34,645 bases of DNA, taken from the NCBI GenBank assembly GCA_014803575.1, contig JAAVBO010000003.1:23617-58261 (forward strand). The letters run 5' to 3'. Shown piece after piece: positions 6,414 to 28,217 of this stretch (the stretch's first letter is position 1; the number at the start of each line of letters is the position of its first letter). Both the position numbers and the translations under genes were made by a program. Under the pieces are notes generated by a model that was not told the origin of the DNA, did no database searches, and saw only the letters and a list, made by a program, of their open reading frames with translations. This DNA is from a bacterium. Lineage in GTDB: Bacteria > Pseudomonadota > Alphaproteobacteria > Rs-D84 > CACZYB01.

Positions 6414-8489
6414 GTGTTCTTTAAAAAAAAATCTGTTGATGAGTTTGATCAAAGTAATTTAAAAGAAAATCAGATTGCGGAGTCTAATAATGATGATATG
6501 GCATCTGATTTTTTATTATCCAGTCTTTCGGAAAATTTAAAAAAGCTTATTAAAAAGGCGAAAAATTCCGGAAGTGTGTCTAAAACTATGGTGGAAAAGG
6601 CCGCAGAAATGGATGGCCTTGGTGTTGAGGAAATTGATGATGCCTTAGTTCTTATTTCTGAAATAGGTGTTAATGTGAAAGAAGAATATGATGAAGGTGA
6701 AGAACTTTCATTGGGTGAAGACGATTCTGATGATGACCTTCATTTGGATGATGACGATGAGGATATTGAAGAGGAAGATGAAAGCCTTTATGGTGTAAGC
6801 AAATCTAAAATAGAGCATAGCACTGCGTTAAAGGAGTTTTTATCAACTCATCAGGAAGATGAAGATTTTCAAGGTGTTGATAGCAGGAGCAGTGATCCTG
6901 TTCGTAATTATTTGCGTGCTATGGGCAGTATTGAACTTTTTTCCCGTGCCGGTGAAATTGCAATTGCAAAGCGTATTGAGGCAGGTCGCAAACTTATGAT
7001 TGAAGGACTTTGCGATAGTCCTATGACGGTTAAGAAAATTCTCGGTTGGTATAATGATTTAGTAAAGGGAGAAATGCAACTTCGCGATATTGTTAATCTT
7101 GATTTAATGTATGGCGATATTTATATGGATAAGGATTTTCCCGAGGAAGTAATGGAAGAAGATGAAGATAATCCTATGGATAGTGATGATGAAGGAATGG
7201 ATGACGGCGAATTTTATGAGGATACATCTTCGGTTTCTGTGGCTGCGATGGAAGATGCTTTGATGGATACTGTTGTTGATACATTTGAAAATATTAAAAA
7301 GATTTATGCAAAGATTGAGAAATTGGAATCTAAAAAAGGTGAGCTTAAAACAAAGGCTGATATTGCTTCGTTTAATGAAAAGTATTCTAAACTTTATTTT
7401 GAGCTTGTTTCCTATATGGCGACTATAAAACTTAATGATGTAAAGATTGCGGAAGTTATGGACGAGATGGTTGATAAGAATCGCAAACTTTTGTCGTTGG
7501 AAGGAAAGCTTTTAAGATTGGCTGAAAATTCACGAATTAAGCGTGAAGATTTCCTTGAAAAATATTCGGAAAGTGGTCTTACCGATGCTTGGATTAAGAA
7601 AATTTCCAAAATTTCATCAAAGGATTGGAAAAGATTTACCACTGTTCATATTGATGAAATTTACCGTATAAAGGAAGAAATGGATAAAATTTCCGGTGAA
7701 ACAGGACTTCCAATTAACGAATATAAAACTGTTGTTGAAGTGGTTCGTAAGGGTGAAAAAGAAGAATCTCGTGCGAAAAAAGAAATGATTGAGGCGAATC
7801 TTCGTTTAGTTATTTCCATTGCAAAAAAGTATACGAATCGCGGACTTCAATTCTTGGATTTGGTGCAAGAGGGAAACATAGGTCTTATGAAAGCGGTTGA
7901 TAAATTTGAGTACAGGCGTGGATACAAGTTTTCAACTTATGCGACTTGGTGGATAAGGCAAGCTATTACCCGTTCTATTGCTGATCAGGCAAGAACTATA
8001 CGTATCCCTGTGCATATGATTGAAACTATTACCAAACTTAAAAAGACTTCTCGTCTTATGATGCAAGATATGGGAAGGGAGCCTACACCGGAAGAGCTTG
8101 CAAAGAAAATTGGTATGCCTATGGAAAAGGTCAGAAAGGTTCTTCGTATTGCAAAATCACCTATTTCTTTGGAAACTACTGTTGGTGATGATGAGGATAC
8201 TTCATTCAGAGATTTTATTGAAGATAAGAATGTTGTTAAACCGCTGGATGCAGTGGTCAACAGTAATCTTCGTGAAATTACTTCACAGGTGCTTTCGACA
8301 CTTACCCCAAGGGAGGAACGTGTCCTTCGTATGCGTTTCGGTATCGGTATGAACAGTGATCATACGTTGGAGGAGGTTGGAAAGCAATTCTCGGTTACTC
8401 GTGAACGTATAAGACAGATTGAGGCAAAAGCTCTTCGTAAGTTGAAGCATCCTACAAGGGCGAAAAAGCTTAAAACCTTTATTGAATAG
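6414..8489 (+). CDS. rpoD: RNA polymerase primary sigma factor RpoD (sigma-70)
   Basis: The 691-residue product is the housekeeping sigma factor that directs RNA polymerase to -35/-10 promoters. Region 1.1 is near 40-90 and region 1.2 is [21 protein letters not shown]. Region 2 begins at [16 protein letters not shown] (from about 461) with [17 protein letters not shown] for -10 melting. Region 3 follows, and region 4.2 has the [17 protein letters not shown] (from about 660). Two strongly acidic stretches (about 90-124 and 237-272) lengthen it relative to E. coli sigma-70 (613). The start is GTG at 6414 with GAGGTAGGG just upstream. Unusually, dnaG is not adjacent. A hairpin terminator follows. 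Confidence 0.98.
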
Positions 8490-13156: not shown

Positions 13157-14125
13157 ATGCAAAATAGTAAAGTTAAGGTTTCTATTATTATACCTGTTTA
13201 TAAAGTTGAAAAGTATATTCATAACTGTATGGGGACTATTTTATCTCAAACTTTAAAAGATATAGAGGTTATTTTAGTTGATGATGGTTCGCCTGATAAT
13301 TGCGGAAAGATTTGTGATGATTATGCTAAACAAGATAGTCGTGTGAAAGTTATTCATCAAACAAATGGTAGGCAGGGAAAGGCTCGAAATAACGGGGCTT
13401 TGATTGCAAAGGGTGAATATATTGGCTTTGTCGACAGTGATGATTGGATTTTTCCTGATATGTATAGAGAGCTTTATGAAAAGGCGAAAAAAACTGATGC
13501 TGATATAGTTATGTGTGATTATTCTAGGTGTCGTTTTGTTGGTGATAAAATTTCAAAAAAATCAAAAATTGATAAAGTATTTTTAGAAAAAGAAGTTTTT
13601 GATGTTGGGACCTTATCAAATATTCCAAGCAGAAAAAGTTTTTTTTGTGTGGCTGTGTGTTGGAATAAAATTTTTAAGAGGGATTTTTATTTAAAAAATA
13701 TAAAATTTCCTGAAAATATGATTTTTGAAGATACTCCTGTTATGTTTAGTGCTTTTATGAAAGCCAAACGAATTTCTGTTGTTAACAAGAAGTTGTATTG
13801 TTATAGGATAACCAATCAAAATTCGTCTTCGCTATCAAAAGACAGTCGTGTTTTGGATTTATTTAAATCTGTAAATTTAACTCTTGATAATTTAGAATAT
13901 TTGGATTATAATCATTTCCAATGTTTTGTTGTTACATCAATTATTAGAGATTGTATTCACCATTTAAGGGGACTTAGGGGTGTCGTTAGGCATCAATATG
14001 TTTTACAATTAAATGATGTAGTAAATAAGATTAAAGAATTAGATTTGTATAAATTTATTTCTTTGAAAGACAAAATTAGATTATATTTAATTATGAAAGG
14101 TTTTAAATGTCTAAATATTATATAG
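13157..14125 (+). CDS. family 2 glycosyltransferase
   Basis: The 322-residue GT-A enzyme transfers a sugar from an NDP-sugar to a growing glycan on the cytosolic side. Motifs: VSIIIPVYKVEKYI start, VDDGS (41-45) for nucleotide binding, and FVDSDDW (DxD-type, 93-96) for metal and donor binding. The C-terminal half (FEDTPVMFSAFMKAKRI) resembles capsule or LPS GT2 enzymes. No transmembrane helices. It is the first gene of the polysaccharide cluster. A weak TAAGG precedes the ATG, and the 90-nt gap upstream has only a poor promoter candidate (TTGCTT-N17-TATTTT). Its 3' end overlaps the next gene by 19 nt. Confidence 0.92.
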   Translation: MQNSKVKVSIIIPVYKVEKYIHNCMGTILSQTLKDIEVILVDDGSPDNCGKICDDYAKQDSRVKVIHQTNGRQGKARNNGALIAKGEYIGFVDSDDWIFPDMYRELYEKAKKTDADIVMCDYSRCRFVGDKISKKSKIDKVFLEKEVFDVGTLSNIPSRKSFFCVAVCWNKIFKRDFYLKNIKFPENMIFEDTPVMFSAFMKAKRISVVNKKLYCYRITNQNSSSLSKDSRVLDLFKSVNLTLDNLEYLDYNHFQCFVVTSIIRDCIHHLRGLRGVVRHQYVLQLNDVVNKIKELDLYKFISLKDKIRLYLIMKGFKCLNII

Positions 14126-14556
14126 TTTCCGGTGGTTTTGATCCAATTCATGAAGGTCATATTGAAAATATTATTGAAAGTCGTGAAAATTCCGATGGGG
14201 TTATTGCTCTTTTGAATAGTGATGCTTGGCTTGTTCGTAAAAAGGGTAAGGCGTTTATGAAGTTTGATACAAGAAAAACTGTTGTTGAAAATATTAAAGG
14301 TATTATTGAAGTTATATCTTTTAATGATGATGATGGAAGTTGCTGTGACGGTTTAAGAAAATGTCGTGAAAATTATCCAAATGATGAACTTGTGTTTGCA
14401 AAGGGTGGTGACAGGACTGCGGATAACATTCCGGAAATTCCCGTATGCAAAGAATGTGGTATTGATATAAAGTATAATGTAGGATTTAAAGTTTCCGGAC
14501 GACAAAAACCTAATTCTTCCTCTTGGCTTTTAAAGGAATGGAAAGAAGCAAAATAG
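14107..14556 (+). CDS. HxGH nucleotidyltransferase (glycerol-3-phosphate cytidylyltransferase / HldE-C like)
   Basis: This 149-residue single-domain protein has GGFDPIHEGHIENI, with the HxGH nucleotide-binding motif at 15-18, and a second conserved stretch KGGDRTADNIPE. The fold is that of the TagD/HldE-C cytidylyl- or adenylyltransferases, which activate a small phosphorylated alcohol or heptose as an NDP-donor. Substrate cannot be told from sequence; glycerol-phosphate, another polyol-phosphate or heptose-phosphate are possible. It overlaps the GT2 gene by 19 nt and has its own AAAGG, so it is translated within the cluster. It probably supplies an activated building block for the same polysaccharide. 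Confidence 0.82.
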   Translation: MSKYYIVSGGFDPIHEGHIENIIESRENSDGVIALLNSDAWLVRKKGKAFMKFDTRKTVVENIKGIIEVISFNDDDGSCCDGLRKCRENYPNDELVFAKGGDRTADNIPEIPVCKECGIDIKYNVGFKVSGRQKPNSSSWLLKEWKEAK

Positions 14557-14596
14557 GAGCTAATTGAATTTAGAAAAATAATAATAGGATTTTGAA

Positions 14597-15811
14597 ATGG
14601 TAAAAAAAATAAAAATGCTTTTTGATGGTCAATTATTATCTAGGGCGTTTATTCAAAAACAAACCGGTATTTTTCGTGTAAGTGATGAGATTTTTAAAGT
14701 TCTTTCCAAAAGAGATGATGTAGAACTTTATTTCTTGGTGACAAATAATAGAAGAGGTGAAACTGAAAAATATTTGGAAAGTAGGGGACTTTCTCATTTA
14801 ATACCTAATATTGTGAGATTACCAAAACTTTTAATGTCTACTAAGACAAGAAATTTGTATCATAAAATTTATGGTGGATTTTTACGAAAGATTTTGCCTT
14901 ATGTTTATGGGAAGAAGTTGAAGGAATTTGATGTTTATTTTTCTCCATTTCCCGCTATTTCTCCGGTTGTTAAAAAAGCGGGTGTTAAAACAGTGAGTTT
15001 TTTTTATGATATTATCCCTGTTTTGTATCCGAATTTTGCGTTTGTTTATAAATCGCAAGCAAAAAATTTTGTATCTTTTGTTAATAATATTAATTCTGAT
15101 TTAATATTGTTTGATTCGAAATCTGCAAGAGATGATTTTTTAAGGTGGAGATATCCGTTTGATTTTAACAGGGCAAAGATTTGTTATTTAGCTGCTGATA
15201 AAAGATTTTGTAAAAAATCAGATTCCGAAATTAAGAAGGTGGCGGATAAATATCATATTCCTCATAAACCTTATTTGTTTGGCATCAGTGAAGCAAATCC
15301 AAGAAAAAATTTTGCTCATGTCATTAAATCTTTTATTGAATATGTTGAAAAAACAGGTGATAAAAATTTGAATTTGGTTATTGCTGGAAAGAAGTTGCCT
15401 GGATATGATTATTTGGCTGAATGTTCCGATAAATTGGAAAAATATAAGGATAGAATTATTTTAACCGGATATGTCGATGATGAGGATATACCTGCACTTT
15501 ACAGTGGGGCAAGTATATTTATGTATCCAAGTTTGTATGAAGGATTCGGGCTTCCTTTGTTAGAAGCTATGCAATGTGGTATTCCCGTGATTACTGCTGA
15601 TAATTCTTCGCTTCCTGAAGTCGGCGGTGATGCGGTTGCTTATGTTTCCGGATTTGATGTAATTGAGACAGCAAATATGATTGAAAAGATTCTTAATGAT
15701 AAAGAATTTTCTGATGATTTAATTAAAAAATCTTTAGAAAGAGTAAAACTGTTTTCTTGGAAAGAAACGGTTGATATAATGATAAATGAAGTAAAAAAAA
15801 TAGGAGTATAA
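14597..15811 (+). CDS. family 4 glycosyltransferase
   Basis: The 404-residue GT-B enzyme has an N-terminal acceptor domain ([20 protein letters not shown]) and a C-terminal donor domain with [28 protein letters not shown] and a canonical EX7E motif (EGFGLPLLE, Glu315 and Glu323) followed by [15 protein letters not shown]. This layout is typical of retaining group-1 glycosyltransferases, often mannosyl-type. It lies 2 nt before gmd, consistent with use of a GDP-sugar, but donor specificity is inference. The ribosome site is weak (TAGGA). Confidence 0.92.
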
Positions 15812-15813
15812 AT

Positions 15814-16851
15814 ATGGAAAAGCAAAAGACTGCTATTATTACCGGTATTACCGGTCAAGACGGCGGATATTTAGCAAAGTTCCTGCTTGAAAAGGGCTAT
15901 AAAGTTATAGGACTTGTTCGTCGCGGTGCAACTGATACTTTTGTTAAATTAAAAGAACATGGTATCTTTGATAAAATTGAATTTGTGGATTTTGATTTAT
16001 TGGAATTTACTAATATTTGCAGGATTATTAAAAAGTATCGACCTGATGAATTTTATAATTTAGCTGCACAATCTTTTGTGGGTGTTAGTTTTGAAGAACC
16101 TATTTATACTACGGAAGCTGATGGTATGGGTGTTGTTTATATTTTGGAAGCAATTAGGGAATTTTCTCCGCATACAAGATATTATCAAGCATCAACAAGT
16201 GAGATGTTTGGTAAGGTTCAAGAAATGCCACAAACAGAAAAGACACCTTTTTATCCAAGAAGTCCTTATGGTGTTGCTAAACTTATGGCTCATTGGATGA
16301 CAACAAATTACAGGGAAAGTTTCGGACTTTATACTTGTTCCGGAATACTTTTCAATCACGAAAGTCCGATGAGAGGTAAAGAATTTGTCACACGCAAAAT
16401 CACTTCTCATTTTGCTGAATTATATGTTGGTAAAACAGATAAGCCAGTGGAACTAGGTAACCTTAATTCTAAGCGTGATTGGGGTTTTGCCGGTGATTAT
16501 GTTAAAATGATGTGGTTGATGTTACAACAAGATCATGGCGATACTTATGTCATCGCGACAAATGAAACTCATTCCATTCGTGAATTTGTGGAGGAAGTTG
16601 CAAAAGTTTGTGGATGGGATATTGAGTGGAAAGGTGAAGGTGTTGATGAGATTGGTGTTGATAAAAAGACAGGTAAAGTCCTTGTAAAAATAAACCCTAA
16701 ATTCTATCGTCCTGCGGAAGTAGATATTCTTATCGGTAATCCGGAAAAGGCGAAGAAAGTTTTGGGTTGGAAGCGCGATGTAGATTATAATGCCCTTTGC
16801 AAAATGATGATGGAAAGGGATATTGAAAGAGCACAAAACGGAAATTTATAG
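15814..16851 (+). CDS. gmd: GDP-mannose 4,6-dehydratase
   Basis: Gmd converts GDP-mannose to GDP-4-keto-6-deoxymannose using bound NADP. The 345-residue product has the Rossmann motif GITGQDGGYL (11-20), TSE (128-130) with the catalytic acid, and YxxxK (Tyr152, Lys156, PRSPYGVAK). It also has the family's NHESPMRGKEFVTRKI substrate segment and RPAEVDILIGNPEKAKKVLGW near the C terminus. TAGGAG overlaps the end of the GT4 gene. The next gene is a perosamine-synthase-like aminotransferase, so the product is likely used for GDP-perosamine, not for fucose (no GMER partner seen). Confidence 0.96.
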   Translation: MEKQKTAIITGITGQDGGYLAKFLLEKGYKVIGLVRRGATDTFVKLKEHGIFDKIEFVDFDLLEFTNICRIIKKYRPDEFYNLAAQSFVGVSFEEPIYTTEADGMGVVYILEAIREFSPHTRYYQASTSEMFGKVQEMPQTEKTPFYPRSPYGVAKLMAHWMTTNYRESFGLYTCSGILFNHESPMRGKEFVTRKITSHFAELYVGKTDKPVELGNLNSKRDWGFAGDYVKMMWLMLQQDHGDTYVIATNETHSIREFVEEVAKVCGWDIEWKGEGVDEIGVDKKTGKVLVKINPKFYRPAEVDILIGNPEKAKKVLGWKRDVDYNALCKMMMERDIERAQNGNL

Positions 16852-16860
16852 GAGGTTAAT

Positions 16861-18006
16861 ATGATAAAATATCATGTTTATATGCCAAGTTTAACTGGTA
16901 ATGAAAAGAAATATGTTAATGAATGTCTTGATACTACTTGGATTTCTTCAAGAGGAAAATTTGTATCCGAATTTGAAGAAAATTTTTCAAAGTATATAGG
17001 TGTTAATCATGGTGTTGCTGTTTGTAATGGAACAGTAGCTATCCATTTGGCTTTAACAGCTCTTGGTATTGGTGAGGGTGATGAAGTACTTGTCCCAACA
17101 TTTACTTATATTGCTTCGGTTAATCCTATTAAGCAACTTGGAGCAACACCTGTTTTTGTTGATAGTGATGAGGATGATTGGCAAATATCACCCGAAGATA
17201 TAGAACGTAAAATCACACCTAAAACAAAGGCTATTATTGCAGTGCATCTTTACGGACATCCTTGTAAAATGGATAAGATTATGGAAATTGCAAAGAAACA
17301 TAATTTGTTGGTTGTTGAAGATTGTGCAGAGGCAATAGGTTCCGAATTTAATGGTAAAAAAGTTGGTTCTTTTGGTGATGTCGCATGCTTTTCATTCTTT
17401 GGAAACAAAACTATGACTTGTGGTGAAGGTGGTATGTGTTTAACAAATGACCCTACTATTTATAACAGACTTGCAAAACTTAAATCACAAGGATTATCAG
17501 AGGACCGTGAATATTGGCATGATATGATTGGTTATAATTACAGAATGACAAATATTGCGGCGGCTATTGGTTGTGCTCAACTTGAACAAGTGCAAACCTT
17601 CATTGATAAAAAGCAAAAGATTGCAGGTTGGTATAAAAAATATTTAAAGGGTGTGCCGGTAACACTTCATGAACCAAAGGGTAAAGTTCTTCATACATAT
17701 TGGATGAATTCTATTTTGGTTGAAAAGGGTCAAAATAGAGAGGAGCTTCGTAAGTTCTTGCGTGAAGCAGGTATTGAAACGAGACCTACTTTCTATCCGG
17801 TTCATACTATGCCTATGTATTCTCCTAGATTTACATCTCTTAAGGTGGCAGAGGATATAGCTCTTCGTGGTATGAATTTACCATCCTATCCTGCTTTGAA
17901 AGAGGAAGATATTAAATATATTTGTGATAAAATAAAGGAGTTTTCATGCAGAAAAAATATGTTATCGTTGGCTGTGGAGGGCATGCAAAAAGCGTTGCTG
18001 ATGTAA
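16861..18006 (+). CDS. per: DegT/DnrJ/EryC1 aminotransferase, probable GDP-perosamine synthase
   Basis: This PLP enzyme should transaminate GDP-4-keto-6-deoxymannose to GDP-perosamine. The product of 381 residues carries VCNGTVAIHLAL, PTFTYIASVNPI, VEDCAEAIGS and FSFFGNKTMTCGEGG with the PLP lysine at Lys183. The FFGNKT...GEGG signature is that of perosamine synthases (RfbE/Per). Position directly after gmd (AGGAGG ribosome site) supports this. The last roughly 20 codons (after DKIKEF) run 61 nt into the next gene in another frame, giving a tail CRKNMLSLAVEGMQKALLM that does not look like a family C terminus, so the native stop may have been lost. Confidence 0.9.
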   Translation: MIKYHVYMPSLTGNEKKYVNECLDTTWISSRGKFVSEFEENFSKYIGVNHGVAVCNGTVAIHLALTALGIGEGDEVLVPTFTYIASVNPIKQLGATPVFVDSDEDDWQISPEDIERKITPKTKAIIAVHLYGHPCKMDKIMEIAKKHNLLVVEDCAEAIGSEFNGKKVGSFGDVACFSFFGNKTMTCGEGGMCLTNDPTIYNRLAKLKSQGLSEDREYWHDMIGYNYRMTNIAAAIGCAQLEQVQTFIDKKQKIAGWYKKYLKGVPVTLHEPKGKVLHTYWMNSILVEKGQNREELRKFLREAGIETRPTFYPVHTMPMYSPRFTSLKVAEDIALRGMNLPSYPALKEEDIKYICDKIKEFSCRKNMLSLAVEGMQKALLM

Positions 18007-18578
18007 TACTTTTTAATGAGCCTGATGCTGATATTATATTTTTAGATGATAATGCAAAACAGGGAGAGGAAATTTTTTCTTTTCCTGTTGTTGCTAATTA
18101 TAATGTTGACAACGAAAAAGTTATTCTTGGAATTGGAGACAATAACCTTCGCAGGGTTATGTATGATAAATTTCAATCTAATTTAGCTACTATTATTTCA
18201 AATGATGTTTATCAGGGAAAAGACAGTAGTGCAGGGTATGGAACTTTTATTGCTCATAATGCACATATAGGACCGTTGGTAAAAGTTGGTAATGGTTGTA
18301 TTATCAATACCCATTGTGTTTTGGATCACGAAGTGACGGTTGGAAATTTTTCTCATATATCTGTGAATGCTACATTGTGTGGTAAGGTAAAAATCGGAAG
18401 TAATGTTTTTGTGGGTGCCGGTGTTGTGATAAAAGATGGTGTGAAGGTTTGTGATGATGTTATAATAGGTGCCGGAGCTGTTGTCGTAAAAGATATTAAT
18501 GAAAATGGAATATATGTTGGTTGTCCCGCAAAAAAAATTAATACATTGGTTATCTCGCAAGAAAAATTAAGGGGTTAG
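17946..18578 (+). CDS. PglD/NeuD-family sugar N-acetyltransferase, probable GDP-perosamine N-acetyltransferase
   Basis: This 210-residue acyltransferase has the family's N-terminal Rossmann-like domain (YVIVGCGGHAKSVADVI) and a left-handed beta-helix of hexapeptide repeats (about 95-195) with the catalytic-base-type His128 in HCVLDHEVTVG. PglD/PerB enzymes use acetyl-CoA to acetylate the 4-amino group of UDP- or GDP-4-amino-sugars. After Gmd and a perosamine synthase, GDP-perosamine is the natural substrate, giving GDP-N-acetylperosamine; this is inferred from context. AAAGGAG lies 6 nt before ATG 17946, confirming the start inside the upstream frame. Confidence 0.88.
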   Translation: MQKKYVIVGCGGHAKSVADVILFNEPDADIIFLDDNAKQGEEIFSFPVVANYNVDNEKVILGIGDNNLRRVMYDKFQSNLATIISNDVYQGKDSSAGYGTFIAHNAHIGPLVKVGNGCIINTHCVLDHEVTVGNFSHISVNATLCGKVKIGSNVFVGAGVVIKDGVKVCDDVIIGAGAVVVKDINENGIYVGCPAKKINTLVISQEKLRG

Positions 18579-18579
18579 A

Positions 18580-21500
18580 ATGAAAATAGCTGTAGTGGCA
18601 CAAAGATTTTCAATTGGCGGATATAGAGTTTTATATAGATTGCTATCAGCGATTAAAAATAATGAAATTACTTTATTTATCGATTCACGAGATTCTGTTT
18701 CAAAATCTTGTATGAACTCAGATAAAACAGCTATAGATTCTTTAAAAAATAATGGTATTAAAATTGAAGAAATAAATATTGATAAATATAATTGGAATAA
18801 TTTATCCAAAAGAATAAATAATTTTGATACGGCTTTATTTTATTGGCCATTTTTTTGTTTCTGCCCAAAAAATATTAAAATTCCGTTTTATTTTTTGATT
18901 CATGATTTGACTGTTTTATATGATTTTGCTTTTCCATTTTGCGATTCCGCTTCTATAAAATCTAATCTAATATCTTTTTTGGAAAATGGTGGTATCCCTA
19001 TCGTTTTATCGGAATATGGAAAAAAAGATTTTCATAATTTCTTTGATACGGTAATTGAACCTAAAGTAATACATTGGTCAATATTTTCCAATGAAACAAG
19101 TTGTTCGGAAAAAGAAGAAAATGAAATATTGGAAAAATTTAATTTAGAAAGGAAAAAATATTTTATTTATCCAACAAATAATTCATCACATAAAAATATT
19201 CAGCTTTGTATTGGTATAATTGATGTTTTAAGGAAAAAATATCCGGATATTACTTGTGTGCTTTGTGGCTATGGAACGGAAAGTATGAAAGGTAATGTCA
19301 GAGATACACATATTGATAAACATAGCAGTGATTTTTATAATATTTACGGTTTGGGAATTATTAGTGATAAGGAATTATATGTTTTGATTAAAAATGCTGT
19401 TTGTCTTATTACTACAACGTTTGCCGAAGGTGGGTGCGGTCCGGCAAGTGATGCCTGGCTTTTTGGAACTCCGACAGTTATATCCGATATTCCAGTATTA
19501 AGAGAATATTCTGAGCTTTTTGGAGTTAAAACGGAATTTGCTTCACCATTTAATGCAAATGAGTTTGCAGATAAAATTATTGATATAAAAGAGAATGAAG
19601 ATAAGTATTTAAAAATTGTGAAACATAATAAAAAAGCGATTGTTGAAAATTATACTTGGGCTGATGTTGCTGAAAAATATTTATCTGTTTTTAATAATAA
19701 AGGAGAAAAAAAAATGAAAATAGCTGTAATTTGCACTTCATCTTCTGTCGGTGGTTTCAGATATTTATATAATTTATTGCTTGGTATCAAACAGGCTTCT
19801 TCATCTGTTATTATAAATGTTTTTTACAAAGTTGGTGAGGCTTCATCATCAGTTTTAGAAATTGAAGGTTTGAAGGCAAACGGAGTATCCTTTACAACAA
19901 TAACTGATAATCAAGTCAATGGACAAGAAAAGTCATTTATGAAAAGTTTAGAGGATTATGATGTTGTTTTTTACAGCTGGCCTTATGGTATAAAATGTTT
20001 AGATATTAATAAGCCGGTATTTTTTATTCCGCATGATTTTATTTATACACATGGCTTTGGACTTGATGGAATTGGGTTTTATGATCAGAATATGTATAAT
20101 GCTAATATGCTTTATCATAATACATTTATTTCCAATAATGCAATTCCGATAGTTTCCAGTGATTATATTAAAAATGAATTTAACGGGGTATTTCCTAATA
20201 GTTTGTATAAACCTAATGTTGTATATTTATCAACGTTGAATGATTATACCAAAAAATCAGATAAGGAGGTAGCGGAATTTTTAAAGAGTAAGAAAATTGA
20301 TTATGATTATGTATTGTTTGCTTCTAATAATATGCCACATAAAAATTTAGGAAATCTTTTAGGTGCTTGGTATTATGTTAAGCAAAAATATCCTAATTTA
20401 AAACTGTTAATTTCCGGATATGGAAATAATAATATAGCCGGAAAGATTAATACTCCATATTATATGGATCATATTGATATTAATAGTGAAGATTTTGATG
20501 TCAAATCGTTTGGATTGTTGTCTAATGATGAATTTTCAATGCTTATGCAGGGTGCAAAAATGGTTGTAAATTCTTCATTGTGTGAGGCAGGAAACGGCAG
20601 TGGATTGGATGCGTGGCAACTTGGGGTTCCCGTTGTTATGAGTAATATTGAGCCTTTTATGAATCAAATTGAACATCTTGGAGTTAAGGCTGAAACATTT
20701 GACCCAAGAAATTCTTCTGATATTGCAAGAGCAATACTTTATTTGTTGGATAATCCAAAAGTGGCCGAACAAAATGTGAAAGATTCTTTGGAGGCAATGA
20801 AAAAATATACTTGGAAAAAGGTTGGAAAACAATATCTTGATATTTTTGAAAAGTATTTAAAGGATTATAAATGTAAAAAATATTTAGCGGTTACTTTGGA
20901 TTATTCTGCTGTTATGGAAAATTTTGATAAAGAGGGTATTGTTGTTTATACCAAAAATCTTTTAGATGCTTTATTAAAAAATGATAATAGTTTAAATTTG
21001 GAAATTTGGTGTTATTCATATAATGTGGAGCATTGTAAAAGAATATTTAAAGATTTAACGGATAAATATGCAAGTAGAATTAAGTTCTGTGATGAAAAGT
21101 TATACGAAACTGATCATTATATTAATACTATTTATAAAAAGAAAAATTTAAAATATCATTTAAAAAGTGGTTTTTATAATTGTTGTTATGCTTTAACAAA
21201 AAATATTAGATATAGGCAAAAAAGACAAAAGATGAAGGATAAGTTGCTTCAAAATAATTATGTTCCTTTTTCTCAGGAAGAGTTGCTTCAAAAATCTGTA
21301 CAAGATTTTTCCAGAGCATCTTATTGTTATATTCCTGCTGTTAATTTAAAGGTAGGCAGATATTTTTCTTGTCCTAAATTTTTGCAAATTCATGATTTAT
21401 TTGCAATGATACCTGAAATAGAGAAATTATTTATTCCTTTGGTGCCAAATATTGCTGAGGAAAATAAAAAAATTACAGATAATTTGAATGATTATGCAAA

Positions 21501-22233
21501 ACTTAATACAGATTTTATTACTTCAAATGTATTTACGAGAGATAAGGAAATATTAAAATATACGAATATTAAGAAAAGTAATGTTAATGTTATTACTTTC
21601 CCGCCAATGATTAAACAATTTTATAAAGGTGATTTAATAACAGAAAAAGAAATAAGGAAGAAATATACAATTGATGGAAATTATATGTTTTATCCTTCTC
21701 AAAACAGACCGAACAAGAATATTATAGTATTATTGAAAGCATTAAAAAAATTAAAGGATAATGGTATAATTATAAAATTAGTTACTACGGGGCGTATTGC
21801 TTCTTATCCACCGGATTTGAATTTTATGAAAGATAATGATATTGAGGATTTAATTATTGAAACAGGTATGATGTCAGAAAGTGATTTATATGCTTTGTAT
21901 AAGTATTCTACTTTATCTGTTGTAACAACAAAAATTGAGGGATTAGGTATGCCGGGTCAGACTTTGGAGGCTTTGTCTCTTGGCAATATTCCGGTTATTT
22001 GCTCTAAATGTCTTGGTGTTAAAGAAAGTCTTGAAAGTGTCGGATTGAATTTTGAAACAGCCGATCTTAATTGGTTTGAACCTGATGATTATGAAGGTTT
22101 GGCTGAAAAGATACAGGATGTTTTGGCTAATCCAAAAAAACATATAGAAAAGCAGAAAGGTGTGATTTCTTATTATACAAAAAGAACTTGGGATGATGTT
22201 GCAAAGGATTACTTAGAATTATTTAATGATTGA
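18580..22233 (+). CDS. triple GT-B (family 4-like) glycosyltransferase fusion, 1217 residues
   Basis: Three glycosyltransferase modules lie in one frame: about 1-378, 379-763 and 764-1217. Modules 1 and 2 are tandem duplicates (MKIAVVAQRFSIGGYRVLY against MKIAVICTSSSVGGFRYLY; both with HKN, GYG and a DAW..G.P..S block). Module 3 is more distant. The EX7E signature is EX7D in modules 1 (Glu283/Asp291) and 2 (Glu669/Asp677) and EX9E in module 3 (Glu1120/Glu1130). Multi-module enzymes of this kind can add several sugars in succession; linkage is unknown. The module 1-2 junction contains AAAGGAG and an in-frame ATG at 19714 preceded by an A9 run, so module 2 may also be started internally. Confidence 0.9.
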   Translation: MKIAVVAQRFSIGGYRVLYRLLSAIKNNEITLFIDSRDSVSKSCMNSDKTAIDSLKNNGIKIEEINIDKYNWNNLSKRINNFDTALFYWPFFCFCPKNIKIPFYFLIHDLTVLYDFAFPFCDSASIKSNLISFLENGGIPIVLSEYGKKDFHNFFDTVIEPKVIHWSIFSNETSCSEKEENEILEKFNLERKKYFIYPTNNSSHKNIQLCIGIIDVLRKKYPDITCVLCGYGTESMKGNVRDTHIDKHSSDFYNIYGLGIISDKELYVLIKNAVCLITTTFAEGGCGPASDAWLFGTPTVISDIPVLREYSELFGVKTEFASPFNANEFADKIIDIKENEDKYLKIVKHNKKAIVENYTWADVAEKYLSVFNNKGEKKMKIAVICTSSSVGGFRYLYNLLLGIKQASSSVIINVFYKVGEASSSVLEIEGLKANGVSFTTITDNQVNGQEKSFMKSLEDYDVVFYSWPYGIKCLDINKPVFFIPHDFIYTHGFGLDGIGFYDQNMYNANMLYHNTFISNNAIPIVSSDYIKNEFNGVFPNSLYKPNVVYLSTLNDYTKKSDKEVAEFLKSKKIDYDYVLFASNNMPHKNLGNLLGAWYYVKQKYPNLKLLISGYGNNNIAGKINTPYYMDHIDINSEDFDVKSFGLLSNDEFSMLMQGAKMVVNSSLCEAGNGSGLDAWQLGVPVVMSNIEPFMNQIEHLGVKAETFDPRNSSDIARAILYLLDNPKVAEQNVKDSLEAMKKYTWKKVGKQYLDIFEKYLKDYKCKKYLAVTLDYSAVMENFDKEGIVVYTKNLLDALLKNDNSLNLEIWCYSYNVEHCKRIFKDLTDKYASRIKFCDEKLYETDHYINTIYKKKNLKYHLKSGFYNCCYALTKNIRYRQKRQKMKDKLLQNNYVPFSQEELLQKSVQDFSRASYCYIPAVNLKVGRYFSCPKFLQIHDLFAMIPEIEKLFIPLVPNIAEENKKITDNLNDYAKLNTDFITSNVFTRDKEILKYTNIKKSNVNVITFPPMIKQFYKGDLITEKEIRKKYTIDGNYMFYPSQNRPNKNIIVLLKALKKLKDNGIIIKLVTTGRIASYPPDLNFMKDNDIEDLIIETGMMSESDLYALYKYSTLSVVTTKIEGLGMPGQTLEALSLGNIPVICSKCLGVKESLESVGLNFETADLNWFEPDDYEGLAEKIQDVLANPKKHIEKQKGVISYYTKRTWDDVAKDYLELFND
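19701..19716 (+). promoter_or_regulatory. internal ribosome site and A9 slippery tract at the GT module 1-2 junction
   Basis: AGGAG (19701-19705) is followed by nine As (19706-19714), the last being the A of an in-frame ATG (19714-19716). With eight As the upstream frame would read AAA TGA, an ATGA stop/start overlap between two separate genes. The block looks like an old intergenic junction. Confidence 0.6.
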
Positions 22234-22249
22234 TTAAGGAGGTGAATTA

Positions 22250-23398
22250 ATGATTAATATTGCCTTTATAACTGATAATAATTATGTGTTTCCAGTAAAA
22301 GTTGCGATAAAATCCATTATTGCAAATAAAAATGTTGATACGCAATATAATATAAATATTATATGTGTAGAAATGTGTGATGATAGTTGTAGAGCATTGA
22401 AGTCTCTTGAAAAACTTGGAAATGAAAAAGTTTTTATTAATTTGATAGATAAAAAGAATATATTTAAAGATATAAAAATGCCGGCCTATGTTACTCCATC
22501 GGCTTTGTTTAAGTTTTCTTTGGCAGAGATACTTGATAATATAGATAAGTGTTTATATATTGACGGCGATACAATGATACAAAAAGATTTATCCGAATTT
22601 TATAATATTGATATAGATAGTGTATATGCCGGGGTTATTCAGGATTATCATACCATTTATTATAGAGAAATGAATAAAAAACTAAATCTTGATGGTTATT
22701 TTAACAGCGGTGTTATGCTTTTGAATCTTAAAAAAATGAGAAAGGATGGTATCGCCGAAAAATTAATGGCACAAAAGAAAAAGGAAATTGAAACTAATAC
22801 AGTTGTTTTTATGGATCAAAATGCATTAAATGTTGTGTTTGAAGAAAATGTTAAGTATTTGCCTATTATTTATAATTATTCTACTGTTTATAATATTGAT
22901 GAAACGGTTATTTGTCTTCCTGATGATATAAGAAATAATTTACAATATTATAAGGATAATGCGGTGATTGTTCATTTCGCCGGTGGAGCCAAGCCCTGGA
23001 AAATACTTTGTTTGGATAAGCATTTTGTTTCATTTTGGAAGTATGTTGATAGTAATGATTTCTTGCAAATTATGGATGCTGTTTGTAATACCATACAGCA
23101 GGAAAAAGTTAATTCAATTTATTATTTTGATGGTAAAATTAATGCGATGTCAGATAATATCAGTGTGTTGGAAAATAAAAACTTTGTATTAAACGGTGAA
23201 ATTGAAATATTAAGCAGGGAAATTGAAATATTAAATAACGAAATTGAAATATTAAAAAACAGGACTTTGATTTTAGAAAATGAAATATCTGTTTTAAAAG
23301 AAAATAAAAAATATCCAAAATGGTTTTGTAATTTAGTTTGTTGTTTTATAGTAAAGAAAAAGGACAGACATCATTTTAGAAATAAGTATTCACGTTAA
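22250..23398 (+). CDS. family 8 glycosyltransferase with C-terminal coiled coil and basic tail
   Basis: The 382-residue protein has a GT8 domain (about 1-270) with the metal-binding DGD (CLYIDGDTMI, 105-107), FNSGVMLLNL and HFAGGAKPW (His242), the marks of retaining galactosyl/glucosyltransferases such as LPS GT8 enzymes. It then has a coiled coil built of seven-residue repeats (EIEILSR, EIEILNN, EIEILKN...). The end is an aromatic/Cys/basic tail (WFCNLVCCFIVKKKDRHHFR) that would suit peripheral membrane binding. TAAGGAGGTG is a near-perfect ribosome site. It is the last gene of the polysaccharide cluster and is followed by a bidirectional terminator. Confidence 0.92.
   Translation: MINIAFITDNNYVFPVKVAIKSIIANKNVDTQYNINIICVEMCDDSCRALKSLEKLGNEKVFINLIDKKNIFKDIKMPAYVTPSALFKFSLAEILDNIDKCLYIDGDTMIQKDLSEFYNIDIDSVYAGVIQDYHTIYYREMNKKLNLDGYFNSGVMLLNLKKMRKDGIAEKLMAQKKKEIETNTVVFMDQNALNVVFEENVKYLPIIYNYSTVYNIDETVICLPDDIRNNLQYYKDNAVIVHFAGGAKPWKILCLDKHFVSFWKYVDSNDFLQIMDAVCNTIQQEKVNSIYYFDGKINAMSDNISVLENKNFVLNGEIEILSREIEILNNEIEILKNRTLILENEISVLKENKKYPKWFCNLVCCFIVKKKDRHHFRNKYSR
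23198..23260 (+). repeat. three 21-bp tandem repeats encoding coiled-coil heptads
   Basis: GAAATTGAAATATTAA begins at 23198, 23219 and 23240, each followed by 5 variable bases. Each unit is exactly seven codons, so gain or loss of a unit would change the coiled-coil length without a frameshift. A degenerate fourth copy follows. Confidence 0.85.
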
Positions 23399-26013: not shown

Positions 26014-26757
26014 TTAATATTCTGCTTTTTCAAAATAAAGTCCGCATGCTGGGGCGGTCGGGCCGGCCTTTGTTCGGTCCTTTGCCTCTAAAATATCGAT
26101 GAATTGTTGTTCGGTTAATTTGTGGCGACCAACCATTTCAAGAGTGCCGACTATGTTTCGGACCTGATGATGAAGGAATGATTTTGCATTGAGGCTTATT
26201 TCAATTAAATCGCCATTTCTTTTTACGCTTATTTCATCAAGGGTTTTAATAGGTGATTTTGCCTGACATTCGGAGGCACGAAATGATGAAAAGTCGTGTT
26301 TTCCTACTAGGTTTTGTGCGACTTTATCCATAAGTTCGGTATCAAGGGGGTGGTATACCCACCATACCCTTTGATTATCAATTATCGGACGGGTAGGGCG
26401 GTTTAGGATTTTGTATATGTAGTAGCGTTTTTTACAGCTGAACCTTGCGTGAAAATCGTCATGGACCTTTTCTACATTTAAGATTGAAATATCTTCGTTT
26501 GATTGTTGAAGATGAAAATTTGTTGCCATAAGGATTTTATAGGGGTCGTATTCCTTTGAAAGCTCTATATGTGCTGGCATACGAATCGCATGGACGCCGG
26601 CGTCTGTTCGGCCTGCGGAATAACATTCGGTATTTTCTCCGCAAAATTTGAAGATGGCGTTTTGGATGGCACCTTGGACGGACGGGCTGTCGTCTTGGAT
26701 TTGCCAGCCGGAATATTTTGTGCCTATGTATTCAATTTCAAGTTTATATTTAGTCAT
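26014..26757 (-). CDS. truA: tRNA pseudouridine(38-40) synthase TruA
   Basis: TruA isomerises uridines 38-40 in the tRNA anticodon arm. The 247-residue product has the family core: YIGTKYSGWQ, SVQGAIQNAI, the catalytic Asp52 in SAGRTDAGVHA, FHARFSCKKRYYIYKI, SFLHHQVRNIVGTLEMVGR and a C-terminal GPTAPACGLYFEKAEY. It overlaps the fmt gene by 8 nt. Confidence 0.96.
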   Translation of the reverse strand: MTKYKLEIEYIGTKYSGWQIQDDSPSVQGAIQNAIFKFCGENTECYSAGRTDAGVHAIRMPAHIELSKEYDPYKILMATNFHLQQSNEDISILNVEKVHDDFHARFSCKKRYYIYKILNRPTRPIIDNQRVWWVYHPLDTELMDKVAQNLVGKHDFSSFRASECQAKSPIKTLDEISVKRNGDLIEISLNAKSFLHHQVRNIVGTLEMVGRHKLTEQQFIDILEAKDRTKAGPTAPACGLYFEKAEY

Positions 26758-27679
26758 TTAGGTTTTTGCCAATTTCAAATTTGTATCCGTTTATAAAAGC
26801 CTTTGTTGTAAGAGGATTTCCGCCGGATTTTTGAAGTTCTTCTATTTTAATAATACTTCCGTTCCCGCAGGCGATTTGTAAATCATTTGTTAAAATTGTT
26901 CCTGCCGGTTGGTTGGTAGTTTCATTTATAAGTGATGTTTTTAAAACCTTTATTTGAGTATCATTGTGTATGAAGTATGCCTTTGGTGAGGGCATAAGTC
27001 CACGGACAAGATTGTGGATTTTTCCTGCTGAATTTTGCCAATTTATTTTTGATTCTTCCTTATCCAACTTTGGGGCAAGGGTGAAATTGTCAATTTGTTT
27101 TTGTGGTATGATAGAATCTTTTTTTTCAAGGTATTCTAGTATCATTTTTGCACCAAGTTCGGACATTTTGTTTTCAAGGTCGCCGTAAGTGATATTATCA
27201 TCAATTTCAATTTCTTCCTTTAAAAGCATATCGCCTGTATCCATACCTGCATCCATTTTCATAATGGTAATTCCGGTTTTCGAATCGCCGTTTAAAATTG
27301 AGCGTTGGATTGGATTTGCACCTCTTAAATTCGGAAGAAGGGATGCGTGGATATTTATACAGCCGAGTGATGGTATATCAAGAACCGTTTGAGGAAGTAT
27401 TATTCCGTAGGCTGCGACTATTATAATATCAGGGTGAAGATTTTTTAACTGCTCCACTGTTTCTTCTTTCTTAAAATTTTTAGGTGTGAAAACTGGGATG
27501 TTAAATTTTTCTGCGGTAATATTAACGGGTGATTTTGTTAAAATCATTTTTCTGCCTTGTGGCTTTGGTTCCTTTGTATAAACGCCGATAACATTATAAT
27601 TATTTATTAAATTTAAAAGTGCGGGAACGGAAAAATCCGGTGTTCCCATAAATACTATATTCAATTTTTTATTTCCCAA
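26750..27679 (-). CDS. fmt: methionyl-tRNA formyltransferase
   Basis: Fmt formylates initiator Met-tRNA with 10-formyl-tetrahydrofolate. The product is 309 residues from TTG 27679. It has FMGTPDFSVPAL, the catalytic Asn109/His111/Asp150 set (CINIHASLLP, DAGMDTGD) and the SLLP..RGANPIQRSILNGD loop. Most Fmt proteins start at M-x-IVFMGTPDF. Here that position is also TTG (27664), so the true start is one of two TTG codons and no ATG is available. The reading frame overlaps def by 11 nt. Confidence 0.96.
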   Translation of the reverse strand: MGNKKLNIVFMGTPDFSVPALLNLINNYNVIGVYTKEPKPQGRKMILTKSPVNITAEKFNIPVFTPKNFKKEETVEQLKNLHPDIIIVAAYGIILPQTVLDIPSLGCINIHASLLPNLRGANPIQRSILNGDSKTGITIMKMDAGMDTGDMLLKEEIEIDDNITYGDLENKMSELGAKMILEYLEKKDSIIPQKQIDNFTLAPKLDKEESKINWQNSAGKIHNLVRGLMPSPKAYFIHNDTQIKVLKTSLINETTNQPAGTILTNDLQIACGNGSIIKIEELQKSGGNPLTTKAFINGYKFEIGKNLND

Positions 27680-28217
27680 TTTTTATTTTTTTTAATTTTT
27701 TAGATACTAGTTTTTTCTTTAATGGACTTAGGTAATCAATGAAAAGTTTGCCGTCCAAATGATCAAGTTCGTGTTCAATACAACGGGCAAGCAAGCCGTC
27801 TGCTTCTAATTTTACGGAATTTCCCATTTCATCGGTGTAAGAAATTGAAATTTGTTTTGGACGTTCAATTTCGTAATAGATTGTTGGGACGGAAAGACAT
27901 CCTTCTTCCTTTGTACACAATTCCTTTGATACAGAAATTATTTCAGGATTTATTATTTTTAAATATCTTTTTGATGGAAGTGGGCATTTATCTTCACGAG
28001 CGATAGTTTCTGCATCAATTATAATTATTTTTTTCAAAAGTCCTATTTGCGGACCGGCAAGTCCTATACCATCAAAATGTTCCATAATTTCTGCCATATC
28101 ATCAAAGGTTTCCAACAAATCGTTGGTTATTTTATCAACCTTTGTTGTGGGTTGGCGAAGTATTGGGTCCGGTTCCGTATATAGTGTTATAGTGTTCTTC
28201 TTTTTTAAATCTTCCAT
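27669..28217 (-). CDS. def: peptide deformylase
   Basis: Def removes the N-formyl group from nascent proteins. The 182-residue product has all three motifs: GIGLAGPQIG (50-59), EGCLSVP (Cys107 metal ligand) and CIEHELDHLDG (His149, Glu150, His153). The tail is Lys-rich. It is the first gene of the minus-strand operon def-fmt-truA-kinase-DUF167, divergent from rmuC. The 58-nt divergent gap contains a TATAAT on the minus strand but no convincing -35 box. Confidence 0.97.
   Translation of the reverse strand: MEDLKKKNTITLYTEPDPILRQPTTKVDKITNDLLETFDDMAEIMEHFDGIGLAGPQIGLLKKIIIIDAETIAREDKCPLPSKRYLKIINPEIISVSKELCTKEEGCLSVPTIYYEIERPKQISISYTDEMGNSVKLEADGLLARCIEHELDHLDGKLFIDYLSPLKKKLVSKKLKKIKIGK

Follow-up and report, generated by a model that had tools for sequence, protein, structure and literature searches.

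The window, which is the whole stretch of 34,645 nucleotides that was analysed, contains a polysaccharide cluster at about 13157-23398, in which gmd, an aminotransferase gene, a NeuD-type acetyltransferase gene and several glycosyltransferase (GT) genes could be identified. Of the genes upstream of the ORF studied here, gmd (GDP-mannose 4,6-dehydratase) and the NeuD-family acetyltransferase scored above the NCBIfam cut-off, and the LegC/PseC-like aminotransferase just below it. With Pfam, three Glycos_transf_1 stretches were found in the ORF itself, where at least two GT4 modules per protein are taken to define a multi-module GT4 protein. An earlier note on this DNA had described two fused glycosyltransferases; the fusion could be confirmed, and the number of modules is three. 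The features of the locus are as follows:

18580..22233, plus strand: single ORF of 1,217 aa and 139.9 kDa with three GT4 (Glycos_transf_1) modules
18580..19713, plus strand: module 1, GT4, 378 aa, 43.4 kDa, stand-alone relative not found
19700..19705, plus strand: AAGGAG, Shine-Dalgarno-like (SD), 8 nt upstream of the internal ATG
19706..19714, plus strand: run of nine As (A9), codons (G)AA AAA AAA A(TG), A8 at the same place in the orthologue L002
19714..19716, plus strand: in-frame ATG, ancestral start of module 2 that may still be in use
19714..20871, plus strand: module 2, GT4, nested among the stand-alone genes of other genomes
20872..22233, plus strand: module 3, GT4, joined to module 2 without a start codon, stand-alone in genomes G966 and G983

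Over their length, modules 1 and 2 share 30% identity, and their first residues are similar (MKIAVVAQ and MKIAVICT, respectively); module 3 is more distant from both. Instead of the usual E-x7-E of GT4 enzymes, modules 1 and 2 carry E-x7-D (EGGCGPASD and EAGNGSGLD), and these residues are identical in L002 (2867-6529). An AlphaFold model of modules 1 and 2, calculated from three sequences and of low confidence (mean pLDDT 58), is in line with a helix that stops at residue 371 and, after a short linker, the opening strand of module 2 at residue 380.

The modular make-up and the neighbouring gmd, aminotransferase and NeuD-type acetyltransferase genes make it probable that the protein assembles a surface polysaccharide, with a GDP-4-amino-4,6-dideoxyhexose (for example N-acyl-perosamine) as its building block. 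The known pathway to GDP-perosamine underlies both the proposed N-acyl-perosamine-type sugar and the proposed role of the GT in building a polymer. The WbdA polymerases of E. coli O8/O9 and Klebsiella O5/O3 contain two or three GT modules per protein (PMC11231755). The protein described here resembles them in layout, as several GT modules (here three) lie on one polypeptide and a gene of a GDP-sugar pathway adjoins; however, WbdA depends on GDP-mannose, which itself is probably not the donor here.

The ORF 18580-22233 stays open through AATAATAAAGGAGAAAAAAAAATGAAAATA at the join of modules 1 and 2, and the GGAG-A9-TG described in the earlier note lies exactly at this position. When the length of the run was varied in silico, A9 gave the full 1,217 aa, A8 a product of 378 aa that ends in GEKK at a TGA (19715-19717) overlapping the ATG, A10 a product of 397 aa with its stop 19 aa later than that of the A8 product, and A11 a product of 379 aa. 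Stops are thus found just beyond A9 in both other frames. This bears out the frame arithmetic that had been proposed, in which removal of one A creates a TGA overlapping the start of module 2, and the expected 43-kDa product of module 1 agrees with the computed mass of 43.4 kDa.

One further fused copy was identified. The orthologue L002 in genome G581 has 1,220 aa, shows 74% amino acid identity, carries all three modules in frame and is preceded, as in the window, by gmd, aminotransferase and neuD-type genes. Its genome apparently belongs to another order than that of the window, since the order search from either genome did not return the other. At the join L002 reads AAT AAT AAA GAA ATA AAA AAA ATG, with a codon count identical to that of the window, a run of A8 and no SD. 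Between the two copies dS is ∼0.84, and dN/dS amounts to 0.19, 0.18 and 0.19 for modules 1, 2 and 3, respectively, and to 0.18 for the join (36 codons), where no indel is present. The fused frame is therefore under purifying selection in a diverged copy, as seen in one comparison; only two fused copies are known, so that conservation of the frame rests on this pair. As the fused frame was read in the assemblies of two different genomes, it is concluded that fused is the ordinary state of the DNA.

Searches of the genus (five other genomes) and of the family returned no further trimodular copy. The order and class searches and those around the genomes of both relatives yielded single modules only, besides L002 itself, and in viral, phage and plasmid searches nothing close to the trimodular gene was found. 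The absence from relatives in genus and family suggests that the gene was transferred horizontally into this lineage.

Stand-alone relatives were found for two of the modules. In L003, L004, L005 and G966 a stand-alone module 2 gene directly follows the neuD-type gene, and the stand-alone relatives of module 2 begin at a Met homologous to the junction ATG. Modules 2 and 3 are separate neighbouring genes in G966 (order 2 then 3) and, in reverse order (3 then 2), in G983, whereas they form one ORF here, as expected for a gene fusion. In the tree every module of the window groups with its L002 counterpart with full bootstrap support, and module 2 nests among the stand-alone genes; for module 1 no stand-alone gene was found among the relatives. 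The simplest history would be that separate tandem GT genes fused into one, and the direction of evolution would then be from separate to fused. In G983 (L069, 3512-6106) the module-3-like and module-2-like genes abut, module 3 first, and the stop codon of the module-3-like gene is directly followed by an ATG in the same frame, so that a single stop separates these genes from a different fusion.

The presence of both an SD and an ATG agrees with the earlier suggestion that the site resembles a former normal gene start. To judge how unusual such a signal is, 269 kb of the organism's own genome were used, in which an SD of at least 5 bases at 4-11 nt precedes 122 of 244 ORFs. GGAG-type SDs mostly lie 5-8 nt from the start, and a spacing of 8, as at the junction, was found for 13 of 81. 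An AGGAG-type SD precedes 4 of 1,390 internal in-frame ATGs, compared with about a third of starts. Judged by its sequence, the junction keeps a full gene start, either as a relic or in use.

Combining these results, the site is probably a fusion scar, in which the old start of module 2 is now read through. Tandem glycosyltransferase genes would have merged and now encode a single trimodular GT4 enzyme, in which the former start of module 2 (SD, A-rich spacer and ATG) would be translated as a short linker, NNKGEKKM. A 140-kDa protein with three modules is the predicted main product. As expected minor products, modules 2+3 (96.5 kDa) would arise by internal initiation at the retained SD-ATG, and module 1 alone (378 or 397 aa) by occasional slippage on A9. 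In an A8 transcript the TGA overlaps the ATG, so that module 2 could restart and slippage would do little harm. This overlap of stop and start may soften the damage in the A8 case and may be the reason why the run is tolerated here. We infer the product ratios, the role of the enzyme and the internal initiation. Two points weigh against a fusion scar. Common descent or chance could put both copies in frame even if the genes were in truth separate; furthermore, runs of A9 are otherwise avoided (see below) and the stretch is unbroken, so that the run may be favoured or excused by some factor. At the first join the former gene start is still visible, which makes the step from operon to fused enzyme directly testable.

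Internal initiation could also be a functional feature of its own, which provides separate modules 2+3 beside the full-length protein and thereby sets the module ratio without slippage. This is compatible with the fusion scar, so that the confidence given to each overlaps, and it is regarded as a tentative possibility, somewhat short of an even chance. The 8-nt spacing of AAGGAG, the rarity of AGGAG-type SDs at internal ATGs and the homology of the ATG to the start of stand-alone module 2 genes all speak for it, but a relic of the fusion would look identical. L002 lacks the SD, though SDs are rarely used in its genome (10 of 61 starts), and the loss of the SD in L002 was for this reason dropped as an argument against internal initiation. 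As a source of split products, initiation at the SD-ATG would be at least as good as slippage.

The run itself was compared with 240 kb of the organism's own coding sequence. Given the peptide GEKKM and the codon usage of the genome, the probability of A9 is ∼0.48. In the coding sequence as a whole, runs of at least nine As were observed 6 times, compared with 56 expected after codon shuffling and 39.5 after synonymous randomisation, and none of the 200 and 100 replicates, respectively, was as low as observed. This 7- to 9-fold depletion has a sharp threshold at nine, as A8 is not depleted (71 observed, 72 and 69 expected). One A10 was counted twice, since it lies in both dnaX ORFs, and the true depletion is therefore slightly stronger. 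Several of the other runs of at least nine lie close to the starts or ends of ORFs. When EKK[NIMK] stretches were inspected, 16 of 17 were broken by AAG or GAG, and the junction was the sole unbroken one. Avoidance from nine on has been seen in many bacterial genomes and was ascribed to slippage in transcription or replication (PMC1088944). In this small AT-rich genome, where nearly every A9 is interrupted, one has thus been left at a place where slipping would harm little, and the dnaX run has been kept, apparently for use. Within contig C3, of which 200 kb were analysed, just one other A9 lies on the sense strand, at 6423-6431 of the window, where it forms codons 4-6 of an rpoD-like sigma factor called from a GTG start; the true start of this gene may lie downstream.

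The dnaX gene, identified by NCBIfam, lies on the minus strand of contig C1 at about 26192-27798 (L065:6192-7798; loci L078-L088). At its A10 the zero frame stops within six codons, giving a gamma-like product, and the reading frame proceeds into the tau part when one A is removed. The A10 and the same layout are kept in all six genus members, and a run of A9-A11 was found in all 11 genomes of the family, with a tau frame that differs between genera: in the five genomes outside the genus, tau lies in the other shifted frame in one and in frame in three, and in the fifth its frame is not clearly readable. A two-ORF dnaX with 10 As has been described by GeneTack (PMC3711429), and by its layout the dnaX of this genome is of this known type, which a small family of reduced genomes has conserved. 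From its presence in this genome and genus it is clear that a run of this kind is retained where it is in use, and real slippage on A9 becomes plausible in this organism. The dnaX run differs from the GT junction in that its A10 is conserved and its tau part lies in a shifted frame.

Closer in form to the GT junction is dnaX of Thermus thermophilus, with nine As, a frame that continues and stops nearby in both other frames. The Thermus A9 yields about 50% shifted product, tau and gamma (PMC1088944, PMC5009743); there, however, the run separates two needed forms, whereas the GT run is not conserved. Blochmannia and Buchnera, with 114-153 polyA tracts of at least nine (PMC3017870), likewise have poly(A) runs within the genes of small AT-rich genomes. 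In these organisms long runs are frequent and frameshifting on poly(A) rescues a broken frame, whereas here the frame of the DNA is intact and long runs are avoided.

The earlier note had proposed that both fused and separate products are made from one gene by slippage on the run. For this, RNA polymerase would have to slip on A9 in a deliberate manner, giving a fixed mix of the fused protein, module 1 and re-initiated modules 2+3. The run reaches the length, about nine A or T in the coding strand, that defines a slippage site of this kind. That nine As are prone to slippage fits the avoidance that starts exactly at nine and the conserved frame transition at the A10 of dnaX in the same genome; the depletion of A9 but not of A8 indicates that A9 is costly, most simply because it slips. 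The transition in all six genus members, the dnaX runs of A9-A11 across the family, the stops close behind the run in either alternative frame and the high yield of the Thermus A9 are in line with such a mechanism. However, on A runs the RNA polymerase of E. coli slips less than on T runs, and it showed insertion rather than deletion, with no deletion slippage on the tested A runs (PMC6260861), so that the A8 form with its ATGA overlap may be the rarer one. Furthermore, the comparison of tract length in relatives, which the earlier note had called for, showed that A9 is not conserved, as the run is A8, a length not depleted in the genome of the window, in L002, the only other fused copy. Since the one comparable copy does not retain the tract, a programmed slippage switch at A9 is not supported, nor is the idea that A9 is maintained in order to make fused and separate products, and such a deliberate switch is considered unlikely. 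Slippage as a minor leak at A9 is plausible and likely to occur.

Equally improbable is a joint role of A9 and the SD-ATG as an inbuilt dose splitter that would, by slippage or internal starts, release module 1 and modules 2+3 in a set proportion. If true, one gene would give tethered and untethered enzyme and thereby tune the glycan.

Homopolymers are a common place for assembly and sequencing errors, and the assembly is a draft of 26 contigs with Ns in other stretches. It could therefore be argued that the true run is A8 and that the genes are a normal coupled pair. This is very unlikely, as the window is free of Ns and the independent assembly of a diverged genome shows the same fused frame and codon count with a different run length.

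Surface-polysaccharide genes are common contingency loci and A9 belongs to the avoided class of runs, but phase variation at the level of the DNA, in which replication slippage would toggle between fused and split forms in the population, has hardly any probability either, since each alternative frame leaves module 1 and a startable module 2, which would make a weak switch, and the tract length is not retained in L002.
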